The position numbers and the translations under genes are program-made. The notes beneath the pieces are model-generated. The model saw only the letters and a list, made by a program, of their open reading frames with translations. It made no database searches and was not told where the DNA came from. Shown one piece after another: positions 26,234-64,000 of a DNA stretch of 64,000 nucleotides. Source of the DNA: an uncultured Lachnospiraceae bacterium (GTDB taxonomy: Bacteria; Bacillota; Clostridia; Lachnospirales; Lachnospiraceae); the NCBI GenBank assembly GCA_947173945.1, contig CAMWGV010000001.1, positions 82,747 through 146,746 on the forward strand. The letters run 5' to 3'. How positions within the stretch are numbered: the stretch's first letter is position 1; each line of letters starts with the position of its first letter.

Positions 26234-26280
26234 AATGTATTACCAAACTGTGTTAATACTTGATTTTTAGGAGGAATGGT

Positions 26281-29111: not shown

Positions 29112-29122
29112 GAGGAAATAAC

Positions 29123-29752: not shown

Positions 29753-29781
29753 AATAAAATGTGTTGGGATGGGTGAAGAAT

Positions 29782-30228: not shown

Positions 30229-30262
30229 TTGTTTAAAATCATCATGAAAGGTGACAAAAATT

Positions 30263-31399: not shown

Positions 31400-31464
31400 A
31401 TGGGGGTTCTATAGTATGCGCAGATTGTTAAGGAATATGAAAGCAGAGAAGGAGAAGAATTGTC

Positions 31465-32175
31465 ATGTGTAAGAATATAGCTATTATTCCTGCAAGAGGA
31501 GGAAGCAAGCGTATACCAAAAAAAAATATAAAGAATTTTTGCGGTAAGCCCATTATTGCGTATTCGATAGAAGCTGCAATAAAGAGCAATATATTTGATG
31601 AAGTAATGGTTTCTACTGATAGCGAAGAAATTGCAAATATTGCAATGTCATATGGAGCCAGTGTACCTTTTTACAGAAGCAAAGAAACATCGGATGACTT
31701 TGCGACAACAAGTGATGTTATTATGGAGGTTTTGAATAACTATATAAAGGCAGGAAAAAACTATCAGTATGCGTTTTGCATATATCCGACAGCACCATTT
31801 ATAACACCAGAGTTAATTGTTGATGCGGAAATTTTAATGAAAGATAAGAAACCAAATGAAATAGTAACAGTAGTTGAATTTTCTTATCCGCCACAACGAA
31901 GTTATATTGTTACGGAAGACGGAATGATAAAATATAAGTATGAGCAGTATGTTAATTCCCGTTCACAGGATTTGGAAAAGTGGTATCATGATGTAGGACA
32001 GCTTTATGTTTTCGATGTTGAAAACTTTCGTGCAAACAACGGACAAATCAGGGAACGTATTATGCCAATTATGGTGTCTCCACTGGTTGCACAAGATATT
32101 GATACGGAAAATGATTGGCTTCTTGCAGAAGAAAAGTATAAGTTGATAAATAAAATGGGAAGAGGAGAGTCATAG
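31465..32175 (+). CDS. pseF: Pseudaminic acid cytidylyltransferase PseF
   Basis: Makes CMP-pseudaminic acid from CTP and Pse5Ac7Ac, the direct Maf donor. It has 236 residues with the CMP-sialate synthetase signature (IIPARGGSKRIPKKNIKNF, residues 6-24), the PseF-specific YPTAPFITPELIVDA and the end MPIMVSPLVAQDIDTENDW. A purine-rich site (agaaggagaag) lies 7 bp before ATG 31465. The 65 bp between pseC and this gene hold no clear promoter. Confidence 0.93.
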   Translation: MCKNIAIIPARGGSKRIPKKNIKNFCGKPIIAYSIEAAIKSNIFDEVMVSTDSEEIANIAMSYGASVPFYRSKETSDDFATTSDVIMEVLNNYIKAGKNYQYAFCIYPTAPFITPELIVDAEILMKDKKPNEIVTVVEFSYPPQRSYIVTEDGMIKYKYEQYVNSRSQDLEKWYHDVGQLYVFDVENFRANNGQIRERIMPIMVSPLVAQDIDTENDWLLAEEKYKLINKMGRGES

Positions 32176-32180
32176 GTAAT

Positions 32181-33230
32181 ATGAAATCAGGTGGTTATAA
32201 AATAGAGGATGAAAGACCTGTGTTTATAATTGCTGAAATGTCGGCAAATCACATGCAGGATATAGAACGTGCGAAAAAGATAATTTTAGAGGCAAAAAAT
32301 TCAGGCGCTGATGCGGTGAAGATTCAGACATACAGACCAGACACGATAACAGTAGATTGTCGTGGTGATGAGTTTTTATGTGCTCTGGGGAACTCTTGGG
32401 ACGGAATGAATTTATTTGAATTGTACAAGAGTGCATATACACCTTGGGAGTGGCATGGTGAGCTGTTTGATTATGCAAAGAAAATTGGGATTCCAATGTT
32501 TTCGACACCATTTGATTTGTCAGCGGTAGATTTTTTACGTCAGTTTGATATGCCGGCTTATAAAATTGCATCTTATGAAATAAATGATATTCCATTGATT
32601 AAAAAAACTGCGAAAGAGATGAAGCCTATTATCATTTCTACCGGTTTAGCTACATTAAGCGACATTGAGTTGGCAGTTGATACATGTAGAAAAGTCGGAA
32701 ATAATCAGATTACGCTATTAAAATGTGTGTCAGAATATCCTACACCTTATGAAGACATTAACCTTAAGACAATGGTTAATATGAAGGAAACCTTTGGATG
32801 TGAAGTTGGATTATCTGACCATTCTCTGGGTAGCAGTGTGCCTGTTGCAGCAGTTGCATTGGGTGCAAAGGTTATTGAGAAGCATTTTACACTTAGCAGG
32901 GCAGACGGCGGAGCTGATGCTGTATTTTCCATGGAGCCTGAAGAATTTAGCAAAATGGTTGAGGATGTCAGGAACGTTGCAAAAGCACTCGGAAGTGTAA
33001 CCTATACTTTGACACAGGGGCAACAAAAAAGTAAAGAACTCTCCAGGTCGCTATATATTGTTGAAGATGTAAAAACAGGAGAAGTATTAAACGAACATAA
33101 TATGAAATCCATCAGACCCGGCTATGGATTACATACAAAGTATTATGAAAAGCTTTTGGGGAAAAAAGTAAAAAAAGATTTAAAAAAGGGTACCGCTTTG
33201 GATTGGAGCTATATTGAAAATGAGCAATAG
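32181..33230 (+). CDS. pseI: Pseudaminic acid synthase PseI
   Basis: Condenses the trideoxy-altrose sugar with phosphoenolpyruvate. The 349 residues comprise a NeuB-type TIM barrel (PVFIIAEMSANHMQDIERAK; FSTPFDLSAVDFLRQFDMPA; STGLATLSDIELAV; GLSDHSLGSSVPVAAVALGA; IEKHFTLSRADGGADAVFS) and an SAF antifreeze-like domain (about 285-349; RSLYIVEDVKTGEVLNEHN). The ADGGAD in place of the PxxPDH-type motif of sialate synthases supports Pse. The end overlaps pseG by 11 bp. Confidence 0.94.
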   Translation: MKSGGYKIEDERPVFIIAEMSANHMQDIERAKKIILEAKNSGADAVKIQTYRPDTITVDCRGDEFLCALGNSWDGMNLFELYKSAYTPWEWHGELFDYAKKIGIPMFSTPFDLSAVDFLRQFDMPAYKIASYEINDIPLIKKTAKEMKPIIISTGLATLSDIELAVDTCRKVGNNQITLLKCVSEYPTPYEDINLKTMVNMKETFGCEVGLSDHSLGSSVPVAAVALGAKVIEKHFTLSRADGGADAVFSMEPEEFSKMVEDVRNVAKALGSVTYTLTQGQQKSKELSRSLYIVEDVKTGEVLNEHNMKSIRPGYGLHTKYYEKLLGKKVKKDLKKGTALDWSYIENEQ

Positions 33231-34263
33231 TATTATGATAGGATTTCGGCTTGACGCAAATGAGCAAATTGCAACGGGACACATGATGAGGTGTATTGCG
33301 ATTGCAAAACAGTGTCAATCGCTGGGAGAAGATTGTATATTTTTATTAGCAGAAAAGAAAAATATAGAATTTTTAGAAGAAAATCATCTTATGTATCATG
33401 TGTTAAATGTCGATTGGCAGGATTGGGATGGCAGTATTCCAAAGGTGACTGATGCGATTTACAAATTTCAAATTCGTTGCCTGGTTGTAGATTCTTATCA
33501 GGTCACTCACAATTTTTTTAATCAATTGTATAATAAAACAAAGCTTTTCTATATAGATGATATGTGCAAAGAAAAATTTCATGTACATATGGTATTGCAC
33601 TATCCACAGTGGGGAGAAGAAAAAACAATAGAGGATTTGTATGCAAATACGGAAACGGTCACATATTCAGGCTTGCAGTATATGCCTCTCAGGGAAGAAT
33701 TTTTGTCAAAGGGGAAGAAAACAGAAAAAAAACAAATTCTTGTGACAACAGGAGGAACGGATCCCCTGCATTTCACATTAAAGCTGTGCAGGCAGATTTT
33801 ACAGGAGCCTGCATTGGATACATATGATATATGTGCAGTATTAGGGAAATGGAATAGCGATAAAAAAGAAATGGATATACTTGCAGGAGAAAATAAACGG
33901 CTGAAGGTATATCAGAATATCAAAAATATGAGCGAAAGGATGCGTGAAAGTACAATCAGTGTATCAGCAGGCGGTTCCACAGTTTATGAATTGTTTGCTT
34001 GTGGTGTGCCGGTTGTATGCTTTGGCTTTTCTGATGATCAGGTTGGCATAGGAGAGCGGATGGGAGAAACAGGCATGGTTATATGGGCGGGGGATGCCCG
34101 GACAGATATAAACAATGTTGTGACACGTGCGTTAGAGGGATTAAAACGATATGTGGTTTGTGATATGAGTGAATTATCTCTTAAGCTTCAGGGACTGGTT
34201 GATGGAAAGGGCTGTGAAAGAATAGCAGGAATTTTAAGGGAGAGTATATATGACATTGTATGA
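33220..34263 (+). CDS. pseG: UDP-2,4-diacetamido-trideoxy-altrose hydrolase PseG
   Basis: GT-B-fold hydrolase that removes UDP before PseI acts. ATG 33220 is inside the pseI end; ATG 33235 is an alternative. The 347 residues begin with the PseG motif (IGFRLDANEQIATGHMMRC) and have VVDSYQVTHNFFNQLYNK, a nucleotide site ILVTTGGTDPLHFTLKL and the final ESTISVSAGGSTVYELFACG, VPVVCFGFSDDQVG. With pseB, H, C, F and I it completes the pathway. maf4 begins inside its last codons. Confidence 0.91.
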   Translation: MSNSIMIGFRLDANEQIATGHMMRCIAIAKQCQSLGEDCIFLLAEKKNIEFLEENHLMYHVLNVDWQDWDGSIPKVTDAIYKFQIRCLVVDSYQVTHNFFNQLYNKTKLFYIDDMCKEKFHVHMVLHYPQWGEEKTIEDLYANTETVTYSGLQYMPLREEFLSKGKKTEKKQILVTTGGTDPLHFTLKLCRQILQEPALDTYDICAVLGKWNSDKKEMDILAGENKRLKVYQNIKNMSERMRESTISVSAGGSTVYELFACGVPVVCFGFSDDQVGIGERMGETGMVIWAGDARTDINNVVTRALEGLKRYVVCDMSELSLKLQGLVDGKGCERIAGILRESIYDIV

Positions 34264-36082
34264 AAAAAATATGCAGGAATTAAAAAATAAATATCCCATG
34301 ATTTATAATGCAATAAAAGATGCCTGTGCAGAGGAGTCGACTGATATTGTACATATTGAGACTGCCCGCAATGGTGGAAGTGTTATCGTGTATAATAACA
34401 ATGGAAAAATTGTCTTCTTAAATTCAAAATATGACCCTGAGAATGAAGCAGCAAAATATATGTCGGAAACCTTTGAAATGTCGAATGAAGCAGTATTAAT
34501 GATGTATGGTTTGTCGAATGGTTATTATATTAAAGAATATATGAAGCATACGAAAGGGAATACAAAATGTATTGTGTTTGAGCCAAGCTTAGATATTTTT
34601 ATACAGGTTGTTTTACATATTGATATATCAGATATTATTAAATCGGAGCGGATATGTATTGTAGTAGAGGATATTAACATGGAGCTTTTTTCCATAGCAG
34701 CCGACAATTGGATTGACATGGGAAATAAGGGCTTCAGTAAGATAATGGCAGCGCCTAAATATGTAGAATTGTTTCATGAAAGTTATGAAAAATTCAAACA
34801 AAATTGTATTGACAGATATATAAATTTATATGCAATTGCAAATGCGGTGGTTGATTTTGGTAGGAATGAAGTAATAAGTGTGTTACATAATATGAAATAC
34901 CTTATAGGATGCCGTTGTGGAACTGAGCTTAAGGGTAGATTTCCGGAAGATATGCCTGCAATTGTTGTATCTGCCGGACCATCTCTTGAAAAAAATGTTG
35001 AGTTGCTTAAAGATGCAAAGGGAAAAGCGTTTATATTTGTGGTTGATGCCGCTGTTTCTAAAGTAATGGAGCTTGGAATAAAACCTGATGCAATCATATC
35101 TATTGACCCGAGAAAGCCTGTGGAACAATTTAAATGTAAAGGAATAGACGAATTGCCATTTTTTGTACATACAAATTCCAATGCACAGGTTTTGGAGTAT
35201 GTAAATTCGAATCATTTATTTTTCTTTTCATCAGACTCAATAGTTTGGAATGATTTATTTGAAAAAATGGGGACGAAAATTGATACGCTAAGCCTGGGTG
35301 GCTCTGTAGCAACGGCAGCCATCACATGTCTGATTTCATGGGGAATAAAAAGAATAATTTTAATTGGACAAGATCTTGCCTTCACAGGGAATCGTATGCA
35401 TGTAGGGGAAGAAGAGATGGAACTTGATAATGATGAGAATATATATACACATGTTAAAGATATTAACGGAAATGATACGATTACAAGTTGGATATTTTAT
35501 AACTATTTAAGATGGATAGAGGAAACGGCGTTAAAGCATAGGGATATCCACTTTATTGACGCTACGGAAGGTGGTGCATTTAAGAATCACTGTGAGCAAA
35601 TGACACTGAAAGAAGCAATTGAAAGGTATTGCACGCAGGAATATAATATATCTGACATTTTGCTTTCACTTCCACGATTATTTGAAGGTGGTCATTATCA
35701 GATGATAATTGATGCTCTCGAAAAAATGAAAATGGATTTTAGAAATATGAGAAAACAGTCAATAAATTGTAAGGTTGATTGCTTTAAAGGGAAAAAAATA
35801 ATTGAAAGCCGAACAGGTAATTTCAGGGAGCTTAAACAAATAAACAGGAATATTGTTAATACAGTGGATATGATAAAAAATTCAGCTGAATATGACTGTA
35901 TATATAAATGGACAGCAAAGTCAGAGCTAAATATGCTGAAATATAATGATGTAAACAGTGATAGCGAAGAAGCAGCAATTCAAAGATGTGAGAGAAATGC
36001 AACATATTTTGCTGAACTAGCGGATGCAATGACGGATCTTATTAAAATAGTTGATGACTGTATTACACAGTTAATGCAGTGA
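34250..36082 (+). CDS. maf4: Maf flagellin glycosyltransferase, paralogue 4
   Basis: Fourth Maf protein, 610 residues, overlapping pseG by 14 bp. Core motifs: MPAIVVSAGPSLEKNVELLK, IISIDPRKPVEQFKCKGIDE, LGGSVATAAITCLISWGIKR and ILIGQDLAFTGNRMHVGEEE. Its tail (QRCERNATYFAELADAMTDL) differs from the others. It sits on the border between the Pse genes and the second nonulosonate set, so it may use either CMP sugar. Confidence 0.92.
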   Translation: MTLYEKNMQELKNKYPMIYNAIKDACAEESTDIVHIETARNGGSVIVYNNNGKIVFLNSKYDPENEAAKYMSETFEMSNEAVLMMYGLSNGYYIKEYMKHTKGNTKCIVFEPSLDIFIQVVLHIDISDIIKSERICIVVEDINMELFSIAADNWIDMGNKGFSKIMAAPKYVELFHESYEKFKQNCIDRYINLYAIANAVVDFGRNEVISVLHNMKYLIGCRCGTELKGRFPEDMPAIVVSAGPSLEKNVELLKDAKGKAFIFVVDAAVSKVMELGIKPDAIISIDPRKPVEQFKCKGIDELPFFVHTNSNAQVLEYVNSNHLFFFSSDSIVWNDLFEKMGTKIDTLSLGGSVATAAITCLISWGIKRIILIGQDLAFTGNRMHVGEEEMELDNDENIYTHVKDINGNDTITSWIFYNYLRWIEETALKHRDIHFIDATEGGAFKNHCEQMTLKEAIERYCTQEYNISDILLSLPRLFEGGHYQMIIDALEKMKMDFRNMRKQSINCKVDCFKGKKIIESRTGNFRELKQINRNIVNTVDMIKNSAEYDCIYKWTAKSELNMLKYNDVNSDSEEAAIQRCERNATYFAELADAMTDLIKIVDDCITQLMQ

Positions 36083-36091
36083 GGTAGATGT

Positions 36092-37129
36092 ATGAATTAT
36101 ATGGATTATTGCGTAGATGTATCTGTTACAATAAAGGATGCAATGAAGTGCATAGAAATTGTAAAACCTAAAATTGTATTTCTTGTCGAGGGAAAAAGGC
36201 TTAAGGCATCTCTTACAGACGGAGATGTCAGAAGATTTTTGCTTGCAGGAGGGGCACTGACTGATTTGGCAATTGATGCAGGAAATAAAAATACCCTTTA
36301 TGCAAAAACAACAACAGGGGCAAAGGAGCTTTATCACCAGAAAAATTTTGTTGCCATACCGATAGTAAATGACGAGAGAGAACTTACGGATATTTACATT
36401 GGTGAAAAAAATCGTATGGAAAAACAGGAGTCCTTAAATATCCCGGTTGTAATAAATGCAGGTGGGAAGGGAACCCGACTTGAGCCATATACAAAAATAT
36501 TGCCGAAGCCTTTAATACCTGTGGGTGAAATGCCGATTATAGAGCATATTATGCAGAACTTTATGGACTATGATTGTGAACAGTTCAGCATTATTGTAAA
36601 TTATAAAAAGGACTTGATTAAAGCATATTTTGCTGATTGTGATAAAAAGTATGATATTACATGGTACGATGAGGACAAGCCTCTTGGAACGGGTGGAGGG
36701 CTCTGCTATTTAAAGGGGAAAATAGACACAACGTTTTTCTTTACAAACTGTGATAATCTTCTTCTTTCGAATTATGGAAGCATGCTTCGGTTTCATAGAG
36801 AAAACAAAAATGTTATCACAATGGTTTGTGCATATAAAAATATTGTTATTCCGTATGGTGTGGTTGATATGGGATTAAACGGTTCCATAAACTCGATGGA
36901 GGAAAAACCGGAGATTTCGTTTCTGACAAATACAGGAATATATATTGTTGAACCGGAGGTTCTTAGTGATATAGAAGATAACGTATTTATTGGATTTCCT
37001 GACATTGTTAAAATGCAGATGGAAAAAGGGAAAAAGGTTTCCGTGTATCCTGTCAGTGAAAATGAATGGCTCGATATGGGGCAACTGTCAGAGTTGGACA
37101 AAATGCGAGAAAAATTGTATGATGAATAG
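36092..37129 (+). CDS. ptmE: CBS-domain sugar-1-phosphate guanylyltransferase, PtmE-like
   Basis: A 345-residue fusion. Residues 1-105 look like a pair of CBS domains (KIVFLVEGKRLKASLTDGDV, then RRFLLAG; FVAIPIVNDERELTDIYIGE). Residues 115-345 are a nucleotidyltransferase (VVINAGGKGTRLEPYTKILP, then KPLIPVGEMPIIEHIMQ; FTNCDNLLLSNYGSMLRFHR). This layout matches Campylobacter PtmE, which makes GDP-GlcN for the legionaminic acid pathway. The gene order ptmE-legI-legG-legF recalls the Campylobacter set. GDP as product is inferred from the family. Confidence 0.8.
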   Translation: MNYMDYCVDVSVTIKDAMKCIEIVKPKIVFLVEGKRLKASLTDGDVRRFLLAGGALTDLAIDAGNKNTLYAKTTTGAKELYHQKNFVAIPIVNDERELTDIYIGEKNRMEKQESLNIPVVINAGGKGTRLEPYTKILPKPLIPVGEMPIIEHIMQNFMDYDCEQFSIIVNYKKDLIKAYFADCDKKYDITWYDEDKPLGTGGGLCYLKGKIDTTFFFTNCDNLLLSNYGSMLRFHRENKNVITMVCAYKNIVIPYGVVDMGLNGSINSMEEKPEISFLTNTGIYIVEPEVLSDIEDNVFIGFPDIVKMQMEKGKKVSVYPVSENEWLDMGQLSELDKMREKLYDE

Positions 37130-37139
37130 AGGTAATCGG

Positions 37140-38135
37140 ATGGGGGTTTATATAATTGCAGAAGCAGGAGTAAATCATAACGGAAGTGTGGAAATTGCAA
37201 AGAAGCTGTGTCTTGAGGCGAAGAAGGCAGGTGCGGATGCGGTTAAATTTCAAACGTGGATTACCGAGAAAATAATAACGAAAACTGTTAAGCAGGCTGA
37301 TTATCAAAGTGAAAATACGGGAAGTGAAAAATCACAGTTCGATATGTTAAAGGAGCTTGAGCTTTCGTATGATGATTTTAGGGAAATAAAAAGCTACTGT
37401 GATGAAATCGGTATTTGCTTTGCCTCAACGGCAGACGAGCCTGACAGTCTTGATTTTTTGATTGAGATTGGAATTCCGTTTATAAAAATAGGTTCGGGAG
37501 ATATAGGAAATCTGCCGTTCTTACGGTATATTGGAAGTAAGAATCTGCCGGTTATTCTCAGTACGGGAATGAGTACGCTGGCTGATGTGGAAGAATCCTT
37601 AAAGGCTTTGCGGCAGGGTGGAGCAGAGGACATATCGCTATTACACTGCACCACAAGCTATCCGTGTCCTTACGATAAGGTTAATTTAAATGCCATTGAC
37701 ACATTACGCAGTGCTTTTGGTGTGAATGTAGGTTATTCTGACCATACAATGGGGATAGAGGTTCCCATAGCGGCAGTGGCACGAAATGCAACAATAATTG
37801 AAAAGCATTTTACCCTTGACAGAAGTATGGAGGGACCTGACCATTTGGCAAGCACGGAACCGGTTGCTTTTAAGAGGATGGTTGATGCAATCCGAAACAT
37901 AGAACAGGCATTAGGCAGTGGAAGCAAACAACCTACGAAAGAAGAAATAGAAATATCGCAGGTGGTTTTAAAGCGTATTGTAGCAAGACGGTTTATTCCG
38001 AAGGGAAAGATTATTGATGGGGAAGATTTGATTGTCAAGAGAAACGACGAGGGTATTTCGGTAAAATATTGGGATTTGGTAATAGGAACGACCGCAAGAA
38101 AAAATTATGAGATTGACGAGGCAATAGAGTTTTGA
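37140..38135 (+). CDS. legI: Legionaminic/N-acetylneuraminic acid synthase (NeuB family)
   Basis: Condenses a 2-acetamido mannose-type sugar with phosphoenolpyruvate. From ATG 37140 it has 331 residues; the frame opens at 36990 inside ptmE but those residues lack family similarity. Motifs: YIIAEAGVNHNGSVEIAKKL, AVKFQTW, FASTADEPDSLDFLIEIGIP, STGMSTLADVEESL, GYSDHTMGIEVPIAAVA, IEKHFTLDRSMEGPDHLAST (the NeuB PGPDH-type motif) and a C-terminal SAF domain. PDH instead of the Pse motif separates it from PseI at 32181. Whether the product is Leg5Ac7Ac or Neu5Ac cannot be settled here. Confidence 0.9.
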   Translation: MGVYIIAEAGVNHNGSVEIAKKLCLEAKKAGADAVKFQTWITEKIITKTVKQADYQSENTGSEKSQFDMLKELELSYDDFREIKSYCDEIGICFASTADEPDSLDFLIEIGIPFIKIGSGDIGNLPFLRYIGSKNLPVILSTGMSTLADVEESLKALRQGGAEDISLLHCTTSYPCPYDKVNLNAIDTLRSAFGVNVGYSDHTMGIEVPIAAVARNATIIEKHFTLDRSMEGPDHLASTEPVAFKRMVDAIRNIEQALGSGSKQPTKEEIEISQVVLKRIVARRFIPKGKIIDGEDLIVKRNDEGISVKYWDLVIGTTARKNYEIDEAIEF

Positions 38136-39340
38136 TAGCTGATAGTAATGAAAATAAATATCAGATATGTGTTGTAACAGGAACGAGGGCAGAGTATGGT
38201 TTGCTGAAGGAGTTGCTGTTTAAGTTGCGTGACGATAGCAGATGTAAGCTTACGCTTGTTGTCACGGGTAGTCACCTTGTGGAAAGTTTTGGGAACACAC
38301 AAAAGGAAATAATGGAAGATGGCTTTGAAGACTATATTAAGGTTCCCATTCCGCTGGAGGATGATAGCAAATCGGGAATGGCAAAGACAACAGGAATAGC
38401 CATGCAAAAATTTAGTGAGCTTTTTACCGATTATAAGCCTGATATCTGTATTGTTTTAGGGGACAGATTTGAGATTTTTGCTGTTGCCGCTGCCGCACAT
38501 CTTATCGGAATACCTGTTGCACATATTTCGGGAGGCGATGTGACAGAGGGAGCAGTTGATGATGCAATGAGGCACTGCATAACCAAGCTGAGCAGCCTAC
38601 ATTTCCCAGGGTGTGAGCAGTCGGCAAAGCGGATTATTCAGATGGGAGAGCAGCCTGACAGAGTATTCAATGTGGGAGAACCGGGAGTGGAAAATTGTCT
38701 TAAGGTTACTTGTATGTCTCGCAGGGAGCTTGCAGATAATCTGAATTTTGAGGGAATAATGGGTGACTATGCAGTAGTGACCTTTCACCCTGTTACGATG
38801 GAAAATAGTACTGCCGCTTATCAATTACATGAATTGATTGGTGCGATGGAAGAGTTTCCTGATATGTCGTATATTATTACAAAGGCAAATGCAGATGCAG
38901 AGGGCAGAATTGTGAATGATATATGGCAACAGGAGACGGAGAAACATGCTAACTGGAAGCTGGTTTCGTCCTTGGGCATGGTAAGATATTTATCGGCAGT
39001 AAAATATGCAAAGGCAGTTATCGGTAATTCGTCGAGTGGAATATATGAGGTACCATCCATGGGAATCCCAACGGTAAATATTGGGGACCGACAAAAGGGT
39101 AGAATTATGGCAGAAAGTATAGTAAGCTGCTTTTCGGAGAAAGAAAAAATTACAGCTTCCATAAAGGAAGTGTTAAAGGATGATTTTCAACAAAAGGCAA
39201 AGAATATTGTTCCGATGTATGGGGATGGGACAACGTCTGCACAGATTGTAAGTCACGTTATGGAATATCTGCTAAAAATCAGTGGGACAACAAAAAAACA
39301 TTTTTATGATATCGATTTTGTTTTAGCAGAGAAAGGTTGA
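38132..39340 (+). CDS. legG: Hydrolysing UDP/GDP-N-acetylsugar 2-epimerase (NeuC/LegG)
   Basis: Releases the nucleotide and inverts C2, giving the free manno-sugar for the NeuB-type synthase. The 402 residues begin at TTG 38132, which overlaps the legI stop (TTGA) and suggests coupling. Motifs: VVTGTRAEYGLLKELLFKL, VTGSHLVESFGNT, VLGDRFEIFAVAAAAHLIGI, HISGGDVTEGAVDDAMRHCI, FHPVTMENS and IGNSSSGIYEVPSMGIPTVN, all typical of NeuC. In a Leg pathway the donor would be the diacetamido GDP sugar; in a sialic acid pathway, UDP-GlcNAc. Confidence 0.9.
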   Translation: MIADSNENKYQICVVTGTRAEYGLLKELLFKLRDDSRCKLTLVVTGSHLVESFGNTQKEIMEDGFEDYIKVPIPLEDDSKSGMAKTTGIAMQKFSELFTDYKPDICIVLGDRFEIFAVAAAAHLIGIPVAHISGGDVTEGAVDDAMRHCITKLSSLHFPGCEQSAKRIIQMGEQPDRVFNVGEPGVENCLKVTCMSRRELADNLNFEGIMGDYAVVTFHPVTMENSTAAYQLHELIGAMEEFPDMSYIITKANADAEGRIVNDIWQQETEKHANWKLVSSLGMVRYLSAVKYAKAVIGNSSSGIYEVPSMGIPTVNIGDRQKGRIMAESIVSCFSEKEKITASIKEVLKDDFQQKAKNIVPMYGDGTTSAQIVSHVMEYLLKISGTTKKHFYDIDFVLAEKG

Positions 39341-39349
39341 AATGTAAAA

Positions 39350-40072
39350 ATGACAACAAAATGTAAAATCTTGAAAAGTATTGCCATTATTCCGGCAAGA
39401 AGTGGTTCCAAGGGTCTTAAGGATAAAAATATAATGGATTTAAACGGACAACCTTTGATGGCATACACAATTGATGCTGCATTGAAATCAGGATGTTTTG
39501 ATGAGGTGATGGTATCGACGGATGACGATTGCTATGCAGAGATTGCAAAAAGCTTTGGGGCATCGGTTCCATTTTTAAGGGAGGAGGCTACTTCGGGCGA
39601 TAATGCAGGCTCATGGGATGTTGTAAGAGAGGTTCTTTTAAATTATGAGCGAAATGGCAGGCAGTTTGATTATGTAGCATTGCTTCAACCCACATCCCCA
39701 CTCAGAAATGCGGAGGATATTTCAGGCGTTTTCGATATGCTGCAAAATGAAGATGTGCATAATGTTGTAACAGTAACCGAGGTTGACCATCCTGTGCAAC
39801 ATTGCTTCAAAATGCCACCAAACGGTTCCATGAAAGAAATGGCAGAGTCACCCTACAATTATACAAGGAGACAGGATTTAGAACCATATTATAGGGAAAA
39901 TGGGGCAATTTATCTGGTTGATGCAAAGAAGATAAGAGATAAGGATTATAATTTTTATGCAGATGCCTGTTACGGATATACAATGCCACGTGAAAGGTCT
40001 GTGGATATAGATATAAAAATGGATTTAGAGATAGCCGGTGTTATTTTGAAATCATATTTGAAAAGCGAATGA
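39350..40072 (+). CDS. legF: CMP-legionaminate/N-acetylneuraminate cytidylyltransferase
   Basis: Activates the second nonulosonate with CTP. It has 240 residues with IIPARSGSKGLKDKNIMDLN (residues 13-32), VSTDDDCYAEIAKSFGASVP, LLQPTSPLRNAEDISGVF and the end PRERSVDIDIKMDLEIAGVI. This is the NeuA/LegF branch (SGSKGLKDKN, LLQPTSPLR), clearly different from PseF at 31465 (GGSKRIPKKN, YPTAPF). It follows legG by 9 bp. Confidence 0.91.
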   Translation: MTTKCKILKSIAIIPARSGSKGLKDKNIMDLNGQPLMAYTIDAALKSGCFDEVMVSTDDDCYAEIAKSFGASVPFLREEATSGDNAGSWDVVREVLLNYERNGRQFDYVALLQPTSPLRNAEDISGVFDMLQNEDVHNVVTVTEVDHPVQHCFKMPPNGSMKEMAESPYNYTRRQDLEPYYRENGAIYLVDAKKIRDKDYNFYADACYGYTMPRERSVDIDIKMDLEIAGVILKSYLKSE

Positions 40073-56368: not shown

Positions 56369-56426
56369 GAGGAAACTACAGTCCTTAAAAAGGATGTGGA
56401 TTTTAAACCAAGGAGGGCTGGACGAT

Positions 56427-57206
56427 ATGAAGGTCGTAATTTTAGCGGGCGGTTTTGGAACACGAATATCTGAGGAGTCAGAATATAAGCCAAAGCCTAT
56501 GATTGAGATAGGCGGAATGCCCATTTTGTGGCACATTATGAAAGAGTATTCTGCATATGGCTTTCATGAATTTATAATATGTGCAGGGTATAAGCAGCAT
56601 ATGATTAAAAAATGGTTTGCAGATTACTTTCTTTATACATCAGATATGACCTTTGATTTCACGCAGGGAAATAAAATGACTATCCACAATCAAAAATCTG
56701 AGCCGTGGAAGGTAACAGTTGTAAATACAGGACTGCACACCATGACAGGAGGACGTATAAAACGAATCAGACCTTATGTGGAGAATGAGACATTTCTTAT
56801 GACATATGGAGATGGTGTGTGTGATGTTGATATTTCTAAGCTGGTCGAATTTCATAACAGCCACGGAAAAATTGCAACGCTTACCTCGGTTATGATGAAT
56901 CAGGAAAAAGGGGTGCTTGACATCGGTGGAGATAATGCTGTTCGTTCATTCAGGGAGAAAAGCATGACTGACGGAGCACCTATCAATGCAGGGTATATGG
57001 TTTTAAATCCGAAAATTTTTGATTATATTGAGGGTGACAATACTGTCTTTGAGCAGGAACCTTTAAGAAAGCTGGCAGAACAGGGAGAATTAATGTCATA
57101 TTTACATACGGGATATTGGCAGTGTATGGATACAAAACGTGAAATGGATATATTAGAACGACTATGGGAGAATAATCAGGCACCATGGAAGAATTGGGAG
57201 GATTAA
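56427..57206 (+). CDS. rfbF: Glucose-1-phosphate cytidylyltransferase RfbF/DdhA
   Basis: Makes CDP-glucose, the entry to 3,6-dideoxyhexoses. ATG 56427 has AAGGAGG upstream and gives 259 residues. Motifs: VVILAGGFGTRISEESEYKP, then KPMIEIGGMPILWHIMKEYS, MTYGDGVCDVDISKLVEFH, NAGYMVLNPKIFDYIEGDNT and YWQCMDTKREMDILERLW, as in RfbF. CDP-glucose 4,6-dehydratase (RfbG/DdhB), the usual next gene, is not found in the window. rfbH follows after 3 bp. Confidence 0.93.
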   Translation: MKVVILAGGFGTRISEESEYKPKPMIEIGGMPILWHIMKEYSAYGFHEFIICAGYKQHMIKKWFADYFLYTSDMTFDFTQGNKMTIHNQKSEPWKVTVVNTGLHTMTGGRIKRIRPYVENETFLMTYGDGVCDVDISKLVEFHNSHGKIATLTSVMMNQEKGVLDIGGDNAVRSFREKSMTDGAPINAGYMVLNPKIFDYIEGDNTVFEQEPLRKLAEQGELMSYLHTGYWQCMDTKREMDILERLWENNQAPWKNWED

Positions 57207-57209
57207 AGT

Positions 57210-58550
57210 ATGTTTCAGGACAAGACAGAGCAGCAGGCAAAGGATGAAATATTAAGCTTGGTAAAAGAGTATTGTGATACGTTTCACAATAAAAGGAAGC
57301 CGTTTGAGCCGGGAGACAGAATTGCATATGCGTCAAGGGTGTATGATTCGGATGAAATGTGTAATTTGGTTGATTCTGCTTTGGAATTCTGGCTTACTGC
57401 AGGAAGATACACAGCGGAATTTGAAAAACGGCTTTGTGAATATCTGGGTGTGAAATATTGTTCGCTTGTAAACTCCGGTTCTTCCGCAAATTTACTTGCG
57501 TTTATGGCACTGACATCACCGCTTTTGGGAGAGAGACAAATACGTCCGGGTGATGAAATGATTACGGTAGCGGCAGGATTTCCAACCACGGTTACCCCTG
57601 CTATACAATATGGTGTAGTGCCTGTGTTTATTGATGTTACAATCCCTCAATATAATATGGATGTGAGTATGCTTGAGGATGCATTGTCGGATAAGACAAA
57701 GCTTGTGATGGCGGCACATACATTGGGAAATCCGTTTGACCTGAAAACGGTCAGGCAATTTTGTGATAAGCATGGGCTCTGGCTGATTGAGGACAATTGT
57801 GATGCGTTGGGAACTACATATAAGATAGACGGAGAAGTTCGTTATACAGGAACAATCGGAGATATCGGAACATCATCCTTTTATCCACCACATCATATGA
57901 CAATGGGTGAAGGTGGTGCTGTCTACACAAATAATCCACTGCTCAATAAATGTATCCGTTCTTTCAGAGATTGGGGCAGGGATTGTGTATGTAATCCGGG
58001 ACAGGATAATATGTGTGGGAACAGGTTTAATGGAAAGTACGGAGAGCTTCCGGAGGGCTATGACCATAAGTATGTTTATTCACATTTTGGTTATAACCTG
58101 AAAGCAACTGATATGCAGGCAGCAGTCGGATGTGCACAGCTTAAAAAGTTTCCTTCCTTCGTTGAATGTAGAAAAAAGAATTTTGCACGGTTGAGAGATG
58201 GATTAAAGGGCTGTGAGGATAAGCTGATATTACCTGAGGCTTGTGAAAACTCTGACCCGAGCTGGTTTGGATTTTTGATTACCTGTAAGGAGGGTGTTGA
58301 CCGTAATGTACTTGTCCCTTGTCTTGAAGAACGGGGAATACAGACACGTATGTTATTCGCAGGCAATCTGATTAAGCATCCTTGCTTTGACCAGATGAGA
58401 AAATCAGGAACCGGGTATCGCACAGTAGGTGAGTTGACAAACACAGAACGTATTATGAGAGATTCTTTTTGGATAGGGGTATATCCGGGAATGACGGATC
58501 AGATGATAGATTACATGGCAGAAATTATTAAAGAAGCTATAATGGAATAA
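57210..58550 (+). CDS. rfbH: CDP-4-keto-6-deoxyglucose 3-dehydrase RfbH/DdhC
   Basis: PMP- and iron-sulfur-dependent dehydrase that removes the 3-OH of CDP-4-keto-6-deoxyglucose. The 446 residues belong to the DegT fold, but the PLP Lys is replaced by His228 in SFYPPHHMTMGEGG, the hallmark of this enzyme. The cluster cysteines follow the E1 pattern: DNCDALG and then CVC-x7-C in RDWGRDCVCNPGQDNMC. A reductase partner (DdhD/E3) is not seen here. It lies between rfbF and the acetaldehyde dehydrogenase gene. Confidence 0.93.
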   Translation: MFQDKTEQQAKDEILSLVKEYCDTFHNKRKPFEPGDRIAYASRVYDSDEMCNLVDSALEFWLTAGRYTAEFEKRLCEYLGVKYCSLVNSGSSANLLAFMALTSPLLGERQIRPGDEMITVAAGFPTTVTPAIQYGVVPVFIDVTIPQYNMDVSMLEDALSDKTKLVMAAHTLGNPFDLKTVRQFCDKHGLWLIEDNCDALGTTYKIDGEVRYTGTIGDIGTSSFYPPHHMTMGEGGAVYTNNPLLNKCIRSFRDWGRDCVCNPGQDNMCGNRFNGKYGELPEGYDHKYVYSHFGYNLKATDMQAAVGCAQLKKFPSFVECRKKNFARLRDGLKGCEDKLILPEACENSDPSWFGFLITCKEGVDRNVLVPCLEERGIQTRMLFAGNLIKHPCFDQMRKSGTGYRTVGELTNTERIMRDSFWIGVYPGMTDQMIDYMAEIIKEAIME

Positions 58551-58596
58551 CATCCGAATATATGTTAGACTATGAGAAGAAAATCAGGAAATAAAT

Positions 58597-59475
58597 ATGA
58601 ATAAGATAAAAGTTGGAATCATAGGGACAGGAAATATCGGGACAGATATTTTAATGAAATTAAAAAGATCAAGTATATTGGAATGTGGAATTTTTGCCGG
58701 TCGTAACCCTGATTCAAAGGGAATTCAGCTTGCAAAGAAGATGGGTGTGCCAACATCGACAGAATCAATTCGGGCAATTGAGGAAAATCCAGATTGTTGT
58801 GAAATAGTATTTGACGCAACTTCAGTAACAGTACACAAGCAAAATGCACCCATTCTGAGAAGACTGAAAAAGTTCGCAATTGATTTGACACCGGCACATG
58901 TGGGGAAAATGTGTGTTCCTGTATTGAATTTGGAAGATTGTCTTTTGTTAGATAATGTAAATCTGATTACCTGTGGTGGGCAGGCAACAATCCCTATTGC
59001 AAAGGTTATTAGTGATGTGCATCCGGAAACAAAATATATTGAAATTGTTGCAACCATTGCATCTAAGTCAGCAGGTCCGGGAACGAGAAATAATATTGAT
59101 GAATTTACACAAGTAACAAGAGATGCCTTATCAGAGTTTACAGGGATTGAACATACGAAGGCTATTATTGTGTTGAATCCGGCAGAGCCTCCTATTACGA
59201 TGCATAATACGGTATATGCATTGATTGACAACCCGAATATGGATGAAATCAGACGCCGTGTACGTGAGATGGAAGCAAAAATTAAGAAGTATGTGCCTGG
59301 ATATTCTATTTTGTTAGAACCAAGCTATGAAAATGGGCGTGTCACAACGACGCTTCAGGTTGTCGGATTGGGAGATTATTTGCCGAAATACTCAGGCAAT
59401 TTGGATATTATTACTTGTGCTGCCATTGAGATTGCGGAGTATTATGCACGGGAAAAGCTATTAAAGAGGGGATGA
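58597..59475 (+). CDS. mhpF: Acetaldehyde dehydrogenase (acylating), MhpF-like
   Basis: Interconverts acetaldehyde and acetyl-CoA. The 292 residues have the NAD loop GIIGTGNIGTDILMKL, catalytic Cys126 in TCGGQATIP and the family phrase ATIASKSAGPGTRNNIDEFT. The ribosome site is weak (caggaaat). The next gene codes its channelling partner, 4-hydroxy-2-oxovalerate aldolase, after 4 bp. No aromatic-ring cleavage genes are present, so a catabolic Mhp pathway is unlikely. Here it may supply or consume acetaldehyde for sugar branching. Confidence 0.93.
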   Translation: MNKIKVGIIGTGNIGTDILMKLKRSSILECGIFAGRNPDSKGIQLAKKMGVPTSTESIRAIEENPDCCEIVFDATSVTVHKQNAPILRRLKKFAIDLTPAHVGKMCVPVLNLEDCLLLDNVNLITCGGQATIPIAKVISDVHPETKYIEIVATIASKSAGPGTRNNIDEFTQVTRDALSEFTGIEHTKAIIVLNPAEPPITMHNTVYALIDNPNMDEIRRRVREMEAKIKKYVPGYSILLEPSYENGRVTTTLQVVGLGDYLPKYSGNLDIITCAAIEIAEYYAREKLLKRG

Positions 59476-59479
59476 TAGA

Positions 59480-60529
59480 ATGAGTAAAATCAAAATATTT
59501 GATTGTACACTGCGGGACGGAAATCATGCCTTGAAGCATCAATTGACGAAAGATAATATTGAAGACTATTGTCTTGCAATGGATGGAAGTGGTGTTTATA
59601 CAATTATGGTAGGACATGGAAATGGCTTAGGTGCTTCTTCTTTGCAGGTAGGACTGGCACTTTTAGATGAACGTACAATGCTGCAGACAGCAAAAAAAAA
59701 TCTTGAAAGGACAAAGCTGGGAATATATATGATTCCTGGTTTTGGAACTATTAAAGATAATCTTGAGCCAGCTATACAAGATGGTGTGGAACTGTTTGAG
59801 ATAGGATGCCACTGTACGGAGGCAGATACAACGAGAGAGCATATAGAGTATTTGTGTAATCGTGGTCTTGAAACATATGGGGTTTTGATGATGTATCATA
59901 TGGCATCTCCGGAAAAGATTCTTGAAGAAGCACAAAAGATGCAGTCATACGGAGCAAAGGGTGTAATTTTGATGGACTCAGCAGGTGCCTCGACACCAGA
60001 GATGGTTCAGCGTGTTATTGCTTTGCTGGTAGATAATTTACACGTTCAGGTTGGGTTCCATCCACATAATAATATGGGATTGGCCGTTGGTAATGCATAT
60101 ACAGCAGTTTGTGAAGGTGCCACAATTATTGATGGAACTTTGCGTGGATTTGGTGCAGGGGCAGGAAATTGTCAACTTGAAGATATTGTTGCGGTACTTG
60201 AGAAAACGGGGAAGCGGACGGGCATTGACTTGTACAAAATGTTAGATGCCAGCGATCAGGTAATGCCTGATATCATGGGAAAGGAATTTGGGCAGGATCC
60301 CATTAGCATTGTCAGTGGGCAGGCCGGTGTATTTTCAGCATTTAAGCTCCATGTGTTGAATGCGGCAAGGGAATTTGGAGTAGACCCAAGAGATATATTT
60401 AAAGAACTTGGAAAAAGAAAAGCTGTTGGGGGACAGGAAGATATGATTGTGGAGGTGGCAGAAAAACTCTCTTCTCCAATGGGTTCAAGAAATAGTAATG
60501 TAAATTATCAGTTGGAATCGTTATTATAG
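59480..60529 (+). CDS. mhpE: 4-hydroxy-2-oxovalerate aldolase, MhpE-like
   Basis: Metal-dependent aldolase that joins or splits pyruvate and an aldehyde. The 349 residues carry FDCTLRDGNHALKHQLTKDN (7-26), VGHGNGLGASSLQVG, EIGCHCTEADTTREHIEYLC, VGFHPHNNMGLAVGNAYTAV (metal His pair) and GTLRGFGAGAGNCQLEDIVA. The classical GHGDGL reads GHGNGL here. It is paired with mhpF and followed by a ThDP lyase, a combination that suggests it builds a 2-oxo acid for the lyase. Confidence 0.93.
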   Translation: MSKIKIFDCTLRDGNHALKHQLTKDNIEDYCLAMDGSGVYTIMVGHGNGLGASSLQVGLALLDERTMLQTAKKNLERTKLGIYMIPGFGTIKDNLEPAIQDGVELFEIGCHCTEADTTREHIEYLCNRGLETYGVLMMYHMASPEKILEEAQKMQSYGAKGVILMDSAGASTPEMVQRVIALLVDNLHVQVGFHPHNNMGLAVGNAYTAVCEGATIIDGTLRGFGAGAGNCQLEDIVAVLEKTGKRTGIDLYKMLDASDQVMPDIMGKEFGQDPISIVSGQAGVFSAFKLHVLNAAREFGVDPRDIFKELGKRKAVGGQEDMIVEVAEKLSSPMGSRNSNVNYQLESLL

Positions 60530-60549
60530 ATAAATAGGAGGTTATATCA

Positions 60550-62340
60550 ATGAATGTTTCGGAATTTATTTTTGATTTTTTTTCCCAAAAAGGAATTGAC
60601 ACTGCATTTATGGTAACGGGTGGGCAAGCAATGTGGCTGAACGATGCTATCGGAAAAAGTGGAAAGTATAATATTATTTGTACACATCACGAGCAGAGTG
60701 CAACTATGTCAGCAGATGCTTATGGAAGAATTAAAAATAAACCTGCATTGGCACTTGTGACGGCTGGTCCGGGTAGTGTGAATGCAATGAATGGAGTAGT
60801 AGGCGGATATACAGATTCATCACCAATGATAATTATTTCCGGACAGGCTGCACTTTCATTTGTCCAATATCAGGAGGAAACTAAAATACGTCAGCATGGA
60901 GTACAGGGAATCAATATCAAACCGTTAGTAGAGAATGTTGTAAAATATTTTATAACAATAGATGACGCACAAAAAACCGAATATTATTTGGAAAAGGCAT
61001 ATCAGGAAGCCACATCCGGACGTCCGGGACCGGTATGGGTAGATGTTCCGTTGGATATTCAGAATACACAGGTTGACTTGAAATACATGGAAAAATATGA
61101 TTCTGAAGAAGAGTCTGAAGGCAGAATTGGTTTATTGCAGGCGGTAAAGCAAGCATATAAACTTTTAGAGGCAGCAAAAAGACCGGTTTTTCTGGTTGGT
61201 CAGGGAGTTAGCCTTGCAGGTGCCAGAGAATTATTTTATGAATATGTTAACAAGGTTAGAATACCGGTAATTACGGCCAGGTTAGGTATTGATCTTATTG
61301 AATCAGATAATGATTTATATGTTGGCAGACCTGGCAACTATGGAGAGCGAGCAGCTAACTTAGCTATTCAAAACGCAGATGTTATAATTTCCGTAGGCTG
61401 TCGTCTGGCATCATCCTTGGTAGGTCATGCTCCGAAAGAATTTGGTAAACATGCATATATTTATGTGGTTGACATTGATCAGAAGGAATTGGATAAACCA
61501 GGTGTGAAAATTGACTATAAGGTTAAACTTGATTGTAAGGCTTTCTTTGAAGGGATGAGTAGTAAACTGGAAGAACATCTTCTGCCATCATATGAAGAGT
61601 GGATTCAAGTGACTCAAAAATGGAAGAAGAATTATCCTGTATGTGACCCTGAATATAAGAATCAGAAACCCGTAAATTCATATTATTTTATTGACAAATT
61701 ATCACAGTTTGCAAAGAATGATGCTGCGATTATGGTAGATACCGGTTCCTGTTTCCATGTAGCATGTCAAACATGGAAAATAAAAAAGGGCCAAAAATAT
61801 CTGACTACAGGCGGGCTTTCCTCTATGGGTTATTGGTGTGCAGGAATTGGGGCATGTATGGCAAATGATAGGAAGGAAACAATCGTAATTACAGGTGATG
61901 GAAGCCTTCAGATGAATCTGCAGGAATTTGCAGTTATCAAACATAATAATTTGCCAATTAAGACATTTGTACTTAATAACAATGGGTATCTGCTAATACG
62001 TCATACCCAACGTAATTTTATGGAGGATCGATTTGTTGGTGAGAGTCCTGCTTCAGGCGTTTGGTGTCCAGATACGTTAAGGATTGCTGAAGCATACGGA
62101 ATTAAGGCAGTTCGTATAGAATCTGTTGATGAAATAGATCAAAAAATAAAGGAAGTATTAGAGTATAGCGGACCTGTGGTATGTGAGGTTATGACTCCGG
62201 AATGGCAATTATTGATTCCAAGAATTGCCTCAGATAAGCTTCCGGATGGAACACTTCGTTCCAGAGATTATGAGGATATGTTCCCTTACCTTGATCCGGA
62301 GGAACTGAAAGCTCAGATGGTGGCTGAGAATGGGAAATAA
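60550..62340 (+). CDS. ThDP-dependent acetolactate synthase-like lyase, YerE-type candidate
   Basis: Enzyme of the acetohydroxyacid synthase family, 596 residues, with the catalytic Glu48 (THHEQSATMSADAYGRIKN), the central domain (GPVWVDVPLDIQN; VFLVGQGVSLAG) and the ThDP motif GDGSLQMNLQEFAVIKHNNL, then PIKTFVLNNNGYL (from about 449). No small regulatory subunit or other ilv genes are near. Beside RfbF and RfbH it resembles YerE, which adds a two-carbon unit to a 3,6-dideoxy-4-hexulose in yersiniose synthesis. AGGAGGT precedes the ATG. Confidence 0.8.
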   Translation: MNVSEFIFDFFSQKGIDTAFMVTGGQAMWLNDAIGKSGKYNIICTHHEQSATMSADAYGRIKNKPALALVTAGPGSVNAMNGVVGGYTDSSPMIIISGQAALSFVQYQEETKIRQHGVQGINIKPLVENVVKYFITIDDAQKTEYYLEKAYQEATSGRPGPVWVDVPLDIQNTQVDLKYMEKYDSEEESEGRIGLLQAVKQAYKLLEAAKRPVFLVGQGVSLAGARELFYEYVNKVRIPVITARLGIDLIESDNDLYVGRPGNYGERAANLAIQNADVIISVGCRLASSLVGHAPKEFGKHAYIYVVDIDQKELDKPGVKIDYKVKLDCKAFFEGMSSKLEEHLLPSYEEWIQVTQKWKKNYPVCDPEYKNQKPVNSYYFIDKLSQFAKNDAAIMVDTGSCFHVACQTWKIKKGQKYLTTGGLSSMGYWCAGIGACMANDRKETIVITGDGSLQMNLQEFAVIKHNNLPIKTFVLNNNGYLLIRHTQRNFMEDRFVGESPASGVWCPDTLRIAEAYGIKAVRIESVDEIDQKIKEVLEYSGPVVCEVMTPEWQLLIPRIASDKLPDGTLRSRDYEDMFPYLDPEELKAQMVAENGK

Positions 62341-63250
62341 GAATACAGGAGTGGTGGTGACGGGTGCAACCAGTATGATAGGGATTGCACTCATTGAAGA
62401 ATGTGTAAAAAATAATATTCCTGTAGCTGCCATTATACGTCCACATACAAAACGTATCAGTAGATTACCTAAAACAAATTTAATAACAATATATGAGTCG
62501 GAACTATGTGAATTGTCAAAGGTTGATATACAATCCGGTTCATGGGACGTGTTTTATCACCTTGCATGGAGTGACACTGGAAAAGATACAAGAGATAATC
62601 CGAATTTGCAGGAAAAAAATATAAAGTATACATTAGATGCTGTAAATCTTGCAGAAAAGTTGGGCTGTACTACGTTTATCGGAGCTGGTTCGCAGGCAGA
62701 ATATGGACCGGTGGATGGGGTGATTTTTCCGGATACAAAGACAAATCCTGTTATAGCATATGGAATGGCGAAGGAAGCTTCCCGTATGCTTAGTTCAAGA
62801 CTGTGTGATATATATGGGATAAAACATATTTGGGGAAGGATATTCTCTGTTTATGGACGCTATGATAATGAGGGAACAATGCTTGTGTACGCAATAAAAA
62901 AATTACTATCAGGGGAAACGGCTGAATTTTCCACAGCAAGCCAGCCGTGGGATTATCTCAATGAGTGTGATGCGGGAAGAGCTTTGTATTTGTTAGGCAA
63001 GAGTGAGAATGCAAAAGGAACATACTGTATTGCCTTTGGCAAAAGCAGGCCTTTAAAGGAATATATTTTGGAATTGGGAAGACAGCTGGGGGCTGTTGAT
63101 AGATTAATATTTGCTAAGCAAGGAGAAAAAAAGGATGTGGGGATTCAGGCAAATATTGATAAATTGAAAAGGGATACAGGTTTTGTACCGGAGGTTTCTT
63201 TTTCGGCTGGGATTCAAAAGATGATAAGCGCATATACGGAAAATATATAA
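62330..63250 (+). CDS. NAD-dependent epimerase/reductase (extended SDR), YerF-type candidate
   Basis: A 306-residue extended short-chain dehydrogenase with VVVTGATSMIGIALIEECVK (GxxxxxG, residues 12-18), HLAWSDTG, a catalytic YGMAKE (Y144, K148) and GRIFSVYGRYDNEGTMLVYA. It could reduce the keto group of the branched sugar (YerF role) or act as a 4-reductase or epimerase on a nucleotide sugar. It does not look like CDP-glucose 4,6-dehydratase. The start overlaps the lyase gene by 11 bp. Confidence 0.75.
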   Translation: MGNKNTGVVVTGATSMIGIALIEECVKNNIPVAAIIRPHTKRISRLPKTNLITIYESELCELSKVDIQSGSWDVFYHLAWSDTGKDTRDNPNLQEKNIKYTLDAVNLAEKLGCTTFIGAGSQAEYGPVDGVIFPDTKTNPVIAYGMAKEASRMLSSRLCDIYGIKHIWGRIFSVYGRYDNEGTMLVYAIKKLLSGETAEFSTASQPWDYLNECDAGRALYLLGKSENAKGTYCIAFGKSRPLKEYILELGRQLGAVDRLIFAKQGEKKDVGIQANIDKLKRDTGFVPEVSFSAGIQKMISAYTENI

Positions 63251-63308: not shown

Positions 63309-64000
63309 ATGGATAATGGTGCAGCTTTAAAATATGAACAGGGAATCGCTCTTTTTGAGGAAGGACGCTATGAGGAGGCAGTTGCATGTTTTATTTGTGC
63401 ATATGAGAGTGACTATATGCAGGCTGAAATACTTCAGAACATTTATAATTGTTTTGTCATTCCTAATATTCAGGAATTTCAGGATAATTATAATGTGACC
63501 GGTGTTGAACGATATGGTATTATATGTGAGGACACCGTTATTGATTTTATTCCGGTTGCAGAATATACATTTTATATCTGGCATAGAAAACAGGAAAAAT
63601 TTATAGGGCTGCTTGATGTCTCGGATATGAAAAAGCCTGTAAGTAAAAGCTTTCAAAGCTTATTTATAACTGATCGATGCAATATTGAAGATATGCTGGA
63701 TTTGTTAACGCAGAAAAACTGGAGTAATGTATATATATTGCTTCAGGGACAGGAGTCAGAGCTTCTTTCCTTTTGTAAGCTGCCACTTTTTTTCACACGG
63801 TATTTAAAGGATGCCGTATTTTTCAAATCGGAGAAAGAATTAAAGTCATATTTTAAAAATAGTGAAAATTATCTTCCACACAAAATGTGCACTGATAATG
63901 AACAATATTATAATGCTTTATTTGAAGAAATACATAATGAAAGAATTAATGAAGTAGGTGAGGAGAGAAACAATATATTCCTGTCTGTTTGTATCCCGAC
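63309..64000 (+). CDS. Glycosyltransferase gene with helical N-terminal region, cut by window end
   Basis: An open frame from ATG 63309 (AGGAG 6 bp upstream) to the window end without a stop, at least 230 residues. It starts with a TPR-like repeat (ALKYEQGIALFEEGRYEEAV), followed by about 170 residues I do not recognise, and ends in FLSVCIPT, the usual first strand of a family 2 glycosyltransferase. A GT2 domain should follow outside the window. It may add one of the sugars made by this cluster. The call depends on the last eight residues. Confidence 0.6.
   Translation, partial: MDNGAALKYEQGIALFEEGRYEEAVACFICAYESDYMQAEILQNIYNCFVIPNIQEFQDNYNVTGVERYGIICEDTVIDFIPVAEYTFYIWHRKQEKFIGLLDVSDMKKPVSKSFQSLFITDRCNIEDMLDLLTQKNWSNVYILLQGQESELLSFCKLPLFFTRYLKDAVFFKSEKELKSYFKNSENYLPHKMCTDNEQYYNALFEEIHNERINEVGEERNNIFLSVCIP

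Follow-up and report, generated by a model that had tools for sequence, protein, structure and literature searches.

The closest described counterparts of the locus discussed here are the pathways to yersiniose A and erwiniose, in which thiamine diphosphate (ThDP)-dependent lyases act on CDP-4-keto-3,6-dideoxyglucose. In yersiniose A synthesis the lyase is followed by a reductase, and that pathway is not known to include an MhpE-MhpF pair. Lyases of this kind are described in a review (PMC12247030). YerE prefers pyruvate and transfers a chain of three carbons at most; ErwE of Pectobacterium atrosepticum uses 4-hydroxy-2-oxo acids as donors and refuses pyruvate; JanthE, which bears a CDG motif, accepts short as well as longer alpha-keto acids (PMC12247030). 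Erwiniose itself is a ten-carbon, C4-branched sugar from Erwinia and Pectobacterium, as given in parts of two papers (PMC8657720, PMC9912281), and the passages searched of the P. atrosepticum exopolysaccharide (EPS) paper (PMC8657720) name no such biosynthetic genes. A 4-hydroxy-2-oxovalerate aldolase and an acetaldehyde dehydrogenase of the two families added in the present locus are known from DmpG-DmpF and BphI-BphJ (PDB 1nvm; parts of PMC3962088). Here we analyse a 64,000-nucleotide stretch (the window) of an uncultured Lachnospiraceae bacterium, where rfbF, rfbH, mhpF-like and mhpE-like genes, a YerE-like lyase gene and a reductase gene stand in a row, with rfbG across the contig end. Read from its gene content, the set from 56394 to rfbG probably directs the synthesis of an erwiniose-type CDP-sugar, a 3,6-dideoxyhexose with a 1,3-dihydroxybutyl branch at C4. 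The genes are as follows.

56394..57206, plus strand: rfbF, glucose-1-phosphate cytidylyltransferase (TIGR02623, 373 bits, cut-off 300)
57210..58550, plus strand: rfbH, CDP-4-keto-6-deoxyglucose 3-dehydratase, E1 type (PRK15407, 720 bits, cut-off 423; PDB 3bcx, 536 bits)
58597..59475, plus strand: mhpF-like acetylating acetaldehyde dehydrogenase (TIGR03215, 388 bits, cut-off 282; Cys126 in CGGQATIP)
59480..60529, plus strand: mhpE-like 4-hydroxy-2-oxovalerate aldolase, of the lyase-linked or glycan clade described below (TIGR03217, 364 bits, cut-off 286)
60550..62340, plus strand: YerE-like ThDP-dependent lyase, predicted to add a four-carbon branch at C4 (PDB 8rph, 404 bits; GDG motif; Glu48)
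62330..63250, plus strand: extended short-chain dehydrogenase/reductase (SDR), predicted branch-ketone reductase (PF01370, 87 bits)
63309..64000, plus strand: beginning (5' portion) of a glycosyltransferase gene interrupted where the contig stops, its remainder on contig C7

The six open reading frames (ORFs) that the first-pass annotation had placed at 56427-63250 on the plus strand, in this order, are all found in the ORF list, and the families it assigned hold for all six. Its start for RfbF does not hold, as the ORF begins with the ATG at 56394 and the ATG at 56427 is internal. Alignment of RfbH with the solved dehydrase 3bcx bears out the reported active site: His228 replaces the pyridoxal phosphate lysine, and Cys197, Cys259, Cys261 and Cys269, presumably the residues that bind the 2Fe-2S cluster, are present. 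The genes share one strand and are closely packed, with 4 bases between MhpF and MhpE, 20 bases between MhpE and the lyase, and an overlap of 11 bases between lyase and SDR. MhpE carries a DmpG_comm domain (PF07836, 93 bits). The lyase has the Pfam domains PF02776, PF00205 and PF02775 and scores under the cut-off of every one of the best 25 of its 52 matching families, the top one being TIGR00118 (365 against 538 bits). An assignment of this gene as the housekeeping acetolactate synthase was rejected; two other genes, with 29 and 33% identity, are present in the genome.

The end of the window is the end of contig C1. The genome holds exactly two copies of a 55-base-pair stretch, one at this end of C1 and the other at an end of C7 (70822 bases), and on C7 the split glycosyltransferase is followed by rfbG, a CDP-glucose 4,6-dehydratase gene (TIGR02622, 443 bits) near one end of that contig and the genome's sole one above cut-off. 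The same order is seen in locus L009, whose lyase is 98% identical to the window's: one ORF matches both glycosyltransferase halves and rfbG comes next. This ORF (12760-16323, 1187 amino acids) consists of two tandem copies; the contig break of the window lies in its counterpart, and the repeat may thus have caused the assembly break. Followed across the contig end, the predicted pathway is complete, with RfbF, RfbG and RfbH for a CDP-4-keto-3,6-dideoxy sugar. The first-pass annotation had contained neither rfbG nor the flagellin island and phosphonate genes described below.

Judged by family membership, RfbF would provide CDP-glucose, RfbG would convert it to the 4-keto-6-deoxy sugar and RfbH would take off the 3-hydroxyl. 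MhpF would turn acetyl-CoA into acetaldehyde, which MhpE, running in reverse of its catabolic direction, would join to pyruvate to give 4-hydroxy-2-oxovalerate, predicted to be the (4R) form. By analogy with ErwE, the lyase would decarboxylate this acid and put a 3-hydroxybutanoyl unit on the C4 ketone, and the SDR would then reduce the new branch ketone. A 3,6-dideoxyhexose with a 1,3-dihydroxybutyl branch counts ten carbons; taken together with the ErwE chemistry, this makes the predicted sugar one of the erwiniose type and not a new class. The proposal of a C5 keto acid donor and a four-carbon branch, made in the first-pass annotation, is well supported by the ErwE precedent as described in passages of PMC12247030. 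Its expectation of a new branched sugar does not survive, since the predicted ten-carbon product is of a type already known (PMC8657720, PMC9912281, in part).

Loci with related lyases were collected using two peptide patterns, which returned 371 stretches, and a lyase alignment; 85 encode a relative, the best 80 were kept and 78 were distinct. They come from Lachnospiraceae, Bacteroidota, Pseudomonadota, Bdellovibrionota, Omnitrophota, Armatimonadota, Gemmatimonadota and Actinomycetota. In 69 of the 78 loci both MhpF and MhpE lie no more than 3.1 kb from the lyase, on the lyase strand in 68 of these 69. The pair had first been called unusual in this setting; it is in fact the common case, and this companionship supports the suggested role of MhpF-MhpE as donor supply for the lyase. 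RfbF, RfbG, RfbH, MhpF, MhpE and the lyase are all present in 58 of the 78 loci, and 66 loci encode an SDR from any of three families, to one of which the window SDR belongs. Searches that started from the aldolase, in overlapping draws of 397, 391 and 383 genomes, added three other clade members: L181 and L182 with the full gene set, and L165 with a different ThDP enzyme. The 391-genome draw of the class gave zero further glycan-clade aldolases, and the clade is rare in the family to which the window belongs, being present in 2 of 397 genomes. Among the open-access papers searched, none joins 4-hydroxy-2-oxovalerate aldolase with yersiniose or glucose-1-phosphate cytidylyltransferase, and by title and start of abstract none of the four papers on acetaldehyde dehydrogenase and O-antigen is about such loci; the aldolase-lyase pairing may already be known to specialists.

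Among chains in the PDB, the window lyase is closest to 8rph (404 bits), with 5ahk the next best (245 bits). The entry 8rph, titled only thiamine pyrophosphate-binding protein, we take to be JanthE, as its CDG motif fits, and 5ahk is presumably PpYerE, a homologue of YerE; the closeness to yersiniose that had been put forward is thus not what the scores indicate. The catalytic Glu48 is kept in all 76 aligned lyases, 8rph included. CDG is found in 61 of the 76 (8rph included; alignment L021-L086), whereas the window lyase and its Bacillota relatives, which have the same aldolase module, carry GDG. The lyase of L038, 98.7% identical to 8rph, adjoins MhpF-MhpE, and 4-hydroxy-2-oxovalerate would therefore be the natural donor of 8rph, presumably JanthE. 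ErwE differs in its setting, a Gram-negative O-antigen or EPS locus, whereas the window copy belongs to the flagellin island of a bacterium related to Lachnospiraceae.

The aldolase departs from its described relatives. In BphI, the substrate's C4 lies between Leu87 and Tyr290, and the wild-type protein is strictly 4S; the single variants Y290F and Y290S take either enantiomer, and the doubles L87N/Y290F and L87W/Y290F only 4R, according to passages of PMC3962088. The window enzyme shares the catalytic Arg, Asp and His, the metal-binding His and the DmpG_comm domain with DmpG and BphI, but has Tyr83 and Phe285 in place of BphI Leu87 and Tyr290. The same holds across the lyase-linked aldolases (69 full-length copies plus the window's, the nine loci without both genes excluded): position 87 is His in 59 and Tyr in 11 of the 70, position 290 is Phe in all, none keeps either Leu87 or Tyr290, and the catalytic and metal-binding residues are conserved in every one. 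Leu87/Tyr290 is present in 34 of 34 comparison enzymes, and in 39 of 39 after five were added. Thirty of these are from Bacillota, the best-scoring 30 of 43 above-cut-off matches, which came from 42 of 398 genomes; apart from the window's own, 12 further matches were left out, and this selection by score favours typical family members. In the 4-kb loci of these 30, neither RfbH nor the lyase occurs. A wider count of 73 against 51 adds comparison rows L169-L178, which were labelled by the residues themselves and are thus circular, as well as L166 and L167, where the retrieved 19 and 8.6 kb showed neither lyase nor RfbH; the count of 70 against 39 is the one relied on.

In a tree, the lyase-linked aldolases and the 39 comparison enzymes fall on opposite sides of one branch (support 100/100), and within the glycan clade the Bacillota rows (Tyr) are split from the rest (His). 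Tyr/Phe was found in all 120 nearest database proteins, a set that overlaps with the sequences above and contains the record of the window itself. The TIGR03217 scores in 27 genomes comprise 26 matches at 357-390 bits and five at 552-575 bits, and the window protein and all 26 clade members are above the family cut-off. Of the 26 surveyed genomes having the glycan type, 23 show it as their sole match at 1e-60, and the window aldolase is the only one above cut-off in its genome. With Leu87/Tyr290 replaced by Tyr/Phe, the window aldolase is predicted to make the (4R) acid instead of the usual (4S); for this step taken alone, we lean towards the (4R) product with modest confidence.

Several observations weigh against this account. 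The in vitro ketone acceptor of ErwE was an analogue (PMC12247030, in part). The MhpF-MhpE pair is missing from nine of the 78 loci (L019, L020, L029, L064, L066, L068, L077, L080 and L082), of which L064 is truncated by the end of its contig, and two more, L019 and L077, lie at contig ends. A class I/II aminotransferase is encoded near the lyase in L020 (8822-9994) and L019 (2531-3292), and transketolase halves in L068 (7268-9138) and L080 (7902-9772), the Pfam run having covered L068 only; the lyase family would therefore use other donors too, which suggests that the gene near the lyase sets its donor. In the lyase tree, loci with and without the pair are not set apart (7 changes, a value that 25 of 500 shuffles reached or undercut), and the module is therefore not predictable from the lyase sequence alone. 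A single query for an RfbI-type reductase came back empty for the genome, a weak negative. As to stereochemistry, the residue swap is clade-wide and the 70 copies therefore amount to one or few evolutionary events. The natural residues are His, Tyr and Phe, against the engineered Asn and Trp at BphI 87, and Y290F alone merely relaxed stereocontrol in BphI (PMC3962088, in part). Among the clade members found by aldolase sequence, L165 has Tyr/Phe and L182 Phe/Phe, and L181, with Tyr/Val, carries Val at 290. If erwiniose is 3,6,8-trideoxy-4-C-[(R)-1-hydroxyethyl]-D-gulo-octose, its C7 would by our own derivation be R, matching a (4R) donor, which is consistency and not proof. Caryophyllose bears the same D-gulo prefix (part of PMC9026286).

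Other routes were weighed against the erwiniose-type pathway. A 3-dehydratase with a lyase and an SDR is also the gene logic of yersiniose, and the lyase could take pyruvate to give a yersiniose-like two-carbon branch, leaving MhpF-MhpE to another route. Pyruvate is preferred by YerE and is among the donors of JanthE (passages of PMC12247030), the latter also a point against the erwiniose-type reading. We nevertheless hold the pyruvate route to be quite unlikely, given the tight operon, the association of the pair with the lyase across the collected loci, the greater nearness of the lyase to 8rph than to 5ahk, and an aldolase that is the sole one above cut-off in a genome where no DmpE-type hydratase was found. 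The aldolase might instead use another aldehyde, propionaldehyde or a hydroxylated C3 or C4 compound, and so give a longer branch as in caryophyllose (named in PMC9026286), a sugar in which a comparable core bears a longer chain. In its favour, ErwE also uses 4-hydroxy-2-oxohexanoate (passages of PMC12247030), and chain length in BphI depends on Leu89 (passages of PMC3962088), where the 70 copies have Ile or Met. However, Ile89 is also found in 6 of the 39 comparison enzymes, and MhpF exceeds the acetylating acetaldehyde dehydrogenase cut-off (388 against 282 bits), pointing to acetaldehyde; a longer branch thus appears unlikely.

We see only the slimmest chance that MhpF-MhpE are catabolic enzymes present in the locus by chance, although both families are best known from aromatic degradation and MhpE passes the general family cut-off. 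The glycan clade stands apart from the comparison enzymes, its aldolase is in most of the surveyed genomes the only strong match, and its linkage to the lyase is repeated across phyla, so a catabolic role for the pair was set aside. The DmpE-type hydratase (TIGR03220; DmpE/MhpD) gave no match in the genome; as this model matched only one of 14 control genomes, with none above cut-off, the negative is a weak one, which tempers the case for synthesis. Equally slim is the chance that MhpE acts on phosphonoacetaldehyde. The enzyme RhiG of rhizocticin synthesis reportedly does so, and a phosphonate module lies directly upstream of rfbF:

52080-56368, plus strand: phosphonate module, comprising the three genes below
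52080-54089, plus strand: PepM, a nucleotidyltransferase/cytidylyltransferase/phosphoenolpyruvate (PEP) mutase fusion
54108-55244, plus strand: Fe-dependent alcohol dehydrogenase (Fe-ADH)
55241-56368, plus strand: Ppd, phosphonopyruvate decarboxylase

Yet neither PepM nor Ppd had a match in the fetched flanks of any of the 78 lyase loci, L009 and L010 included, and the aldolases of these two loci are 98 and 95% identical to the window's, with the same residue pattern. In L010, no phosphonate-gene match was obtained in about 100 kb searched. The module itself probably makes and activates 2-hydroxyethylphosphonate.

A second coupling of the aldolase module was found in L165 (1026-12858), which has a glycan-type aldolase and MhpF. 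A YerE-like lyase was not found in the 18 kb fetched; L165 instead has E1 alpha (PF00676) and beta (Transket_pyr/Transketolase_C) subunits. Its neighbours include an SDR, an aldo-keto reductase, epimerase genes, two GDP-mannose 4,6-dehydratases and a GDP-fucose-synthase-like gene, and an E1-like DegT enzyme with His for Lys plus a Cys cluster. This single locus suggests a version of four-carbon branching on a GDP-sugar. Sugar branching by enzymes of the related superfamily is described for antibiotics, with two- or three-carbon transfer or a preference for pyruvate (passages of PMC12247030). Since L165 couples the module to another thiamine enzyme, the aldolase module looks portable. We tentatively propose, at somewhat under even chances, that a natural, stereo-inverted (4R)-4-hydroxy-2-oxovalerate synthase, with an outcome like that of the engineered BphI doubles, serves as a portable donor module, used with YerE-like lyases and CDP-sugars in many phyla and with an unrelated two-subunit thiamine enzyme and GDP-sugar genes in at least one genome, for four-carbon branches on surface sugars including flagellar glycans.

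The erwiniose chemistry is already known; what is new here is the aldolase residue pattern, the flagellin-island setting and the second coupling in L165. The pathway supplies a predicted natural donor for lyases described as promiscuous (JanthE) or of unclear substrate, and positions 87 and 290 provide a sequence rule that tells the sugar-making aldolase clade from catabolic enzymes of the same name. If the (4R) assignment is true, the clade offers a ready natural catalyst for a product that, to our knowledge, has so far come from engineered enzymes, and accounts for the way in which bacteria fix a stereocentre of branched ten-carbon sugars. A further prediction is that such sugars occur on Lachnospiraceae flagella.

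That last prediction comes from the genes upstream of the sugar set, which share one stretch with it:

7506..19636, plus strand: flagellar block with FlgK-like genes, a Flagellin_N (FlgL-like) gene, FliD and two flagellin genes
20104..40072, plus strand: flagellin-modification genes, namely four MptE-like/Maf, LicD, PseB/PseC/PseI/PseG, NeuB/NeuC and two cytidylyltransferases

Flagellin, Maf-type transferase and nonulosonic-acid genes thus accompany the sugar genes in the window, and fliB (flagellin lysine methylase; NF038110, 188 bits) lies on C7, downstream of rfbG. The L010 genome is colinear over the flagellin island, and in L011 flagellin lies about 3 kb from the lyase. Against a flagellar role, no flagellar genes were found in the stretches searched of the Lachnospiraceae loci L013 and L016; flagellin is therefore a likely target in the group around the window and not for the cassette generally. 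In that group the finished sugar would likely decorate flagellin, judging from gene neighbourhood alone. The two flagellin genes of the window (17200-18045 and 18791-19636, plus strand) encode identical proteins. Further along the island, at 45436-50971 on the plus strand, consecutive genes encode an AMP-binding enzyme, an Fe-ADH, a LuxE-LuxC fusion (831 amino acids) and a glyoxalase-like protein, which together form a set for acyl activation and reduction within the flagellin island.

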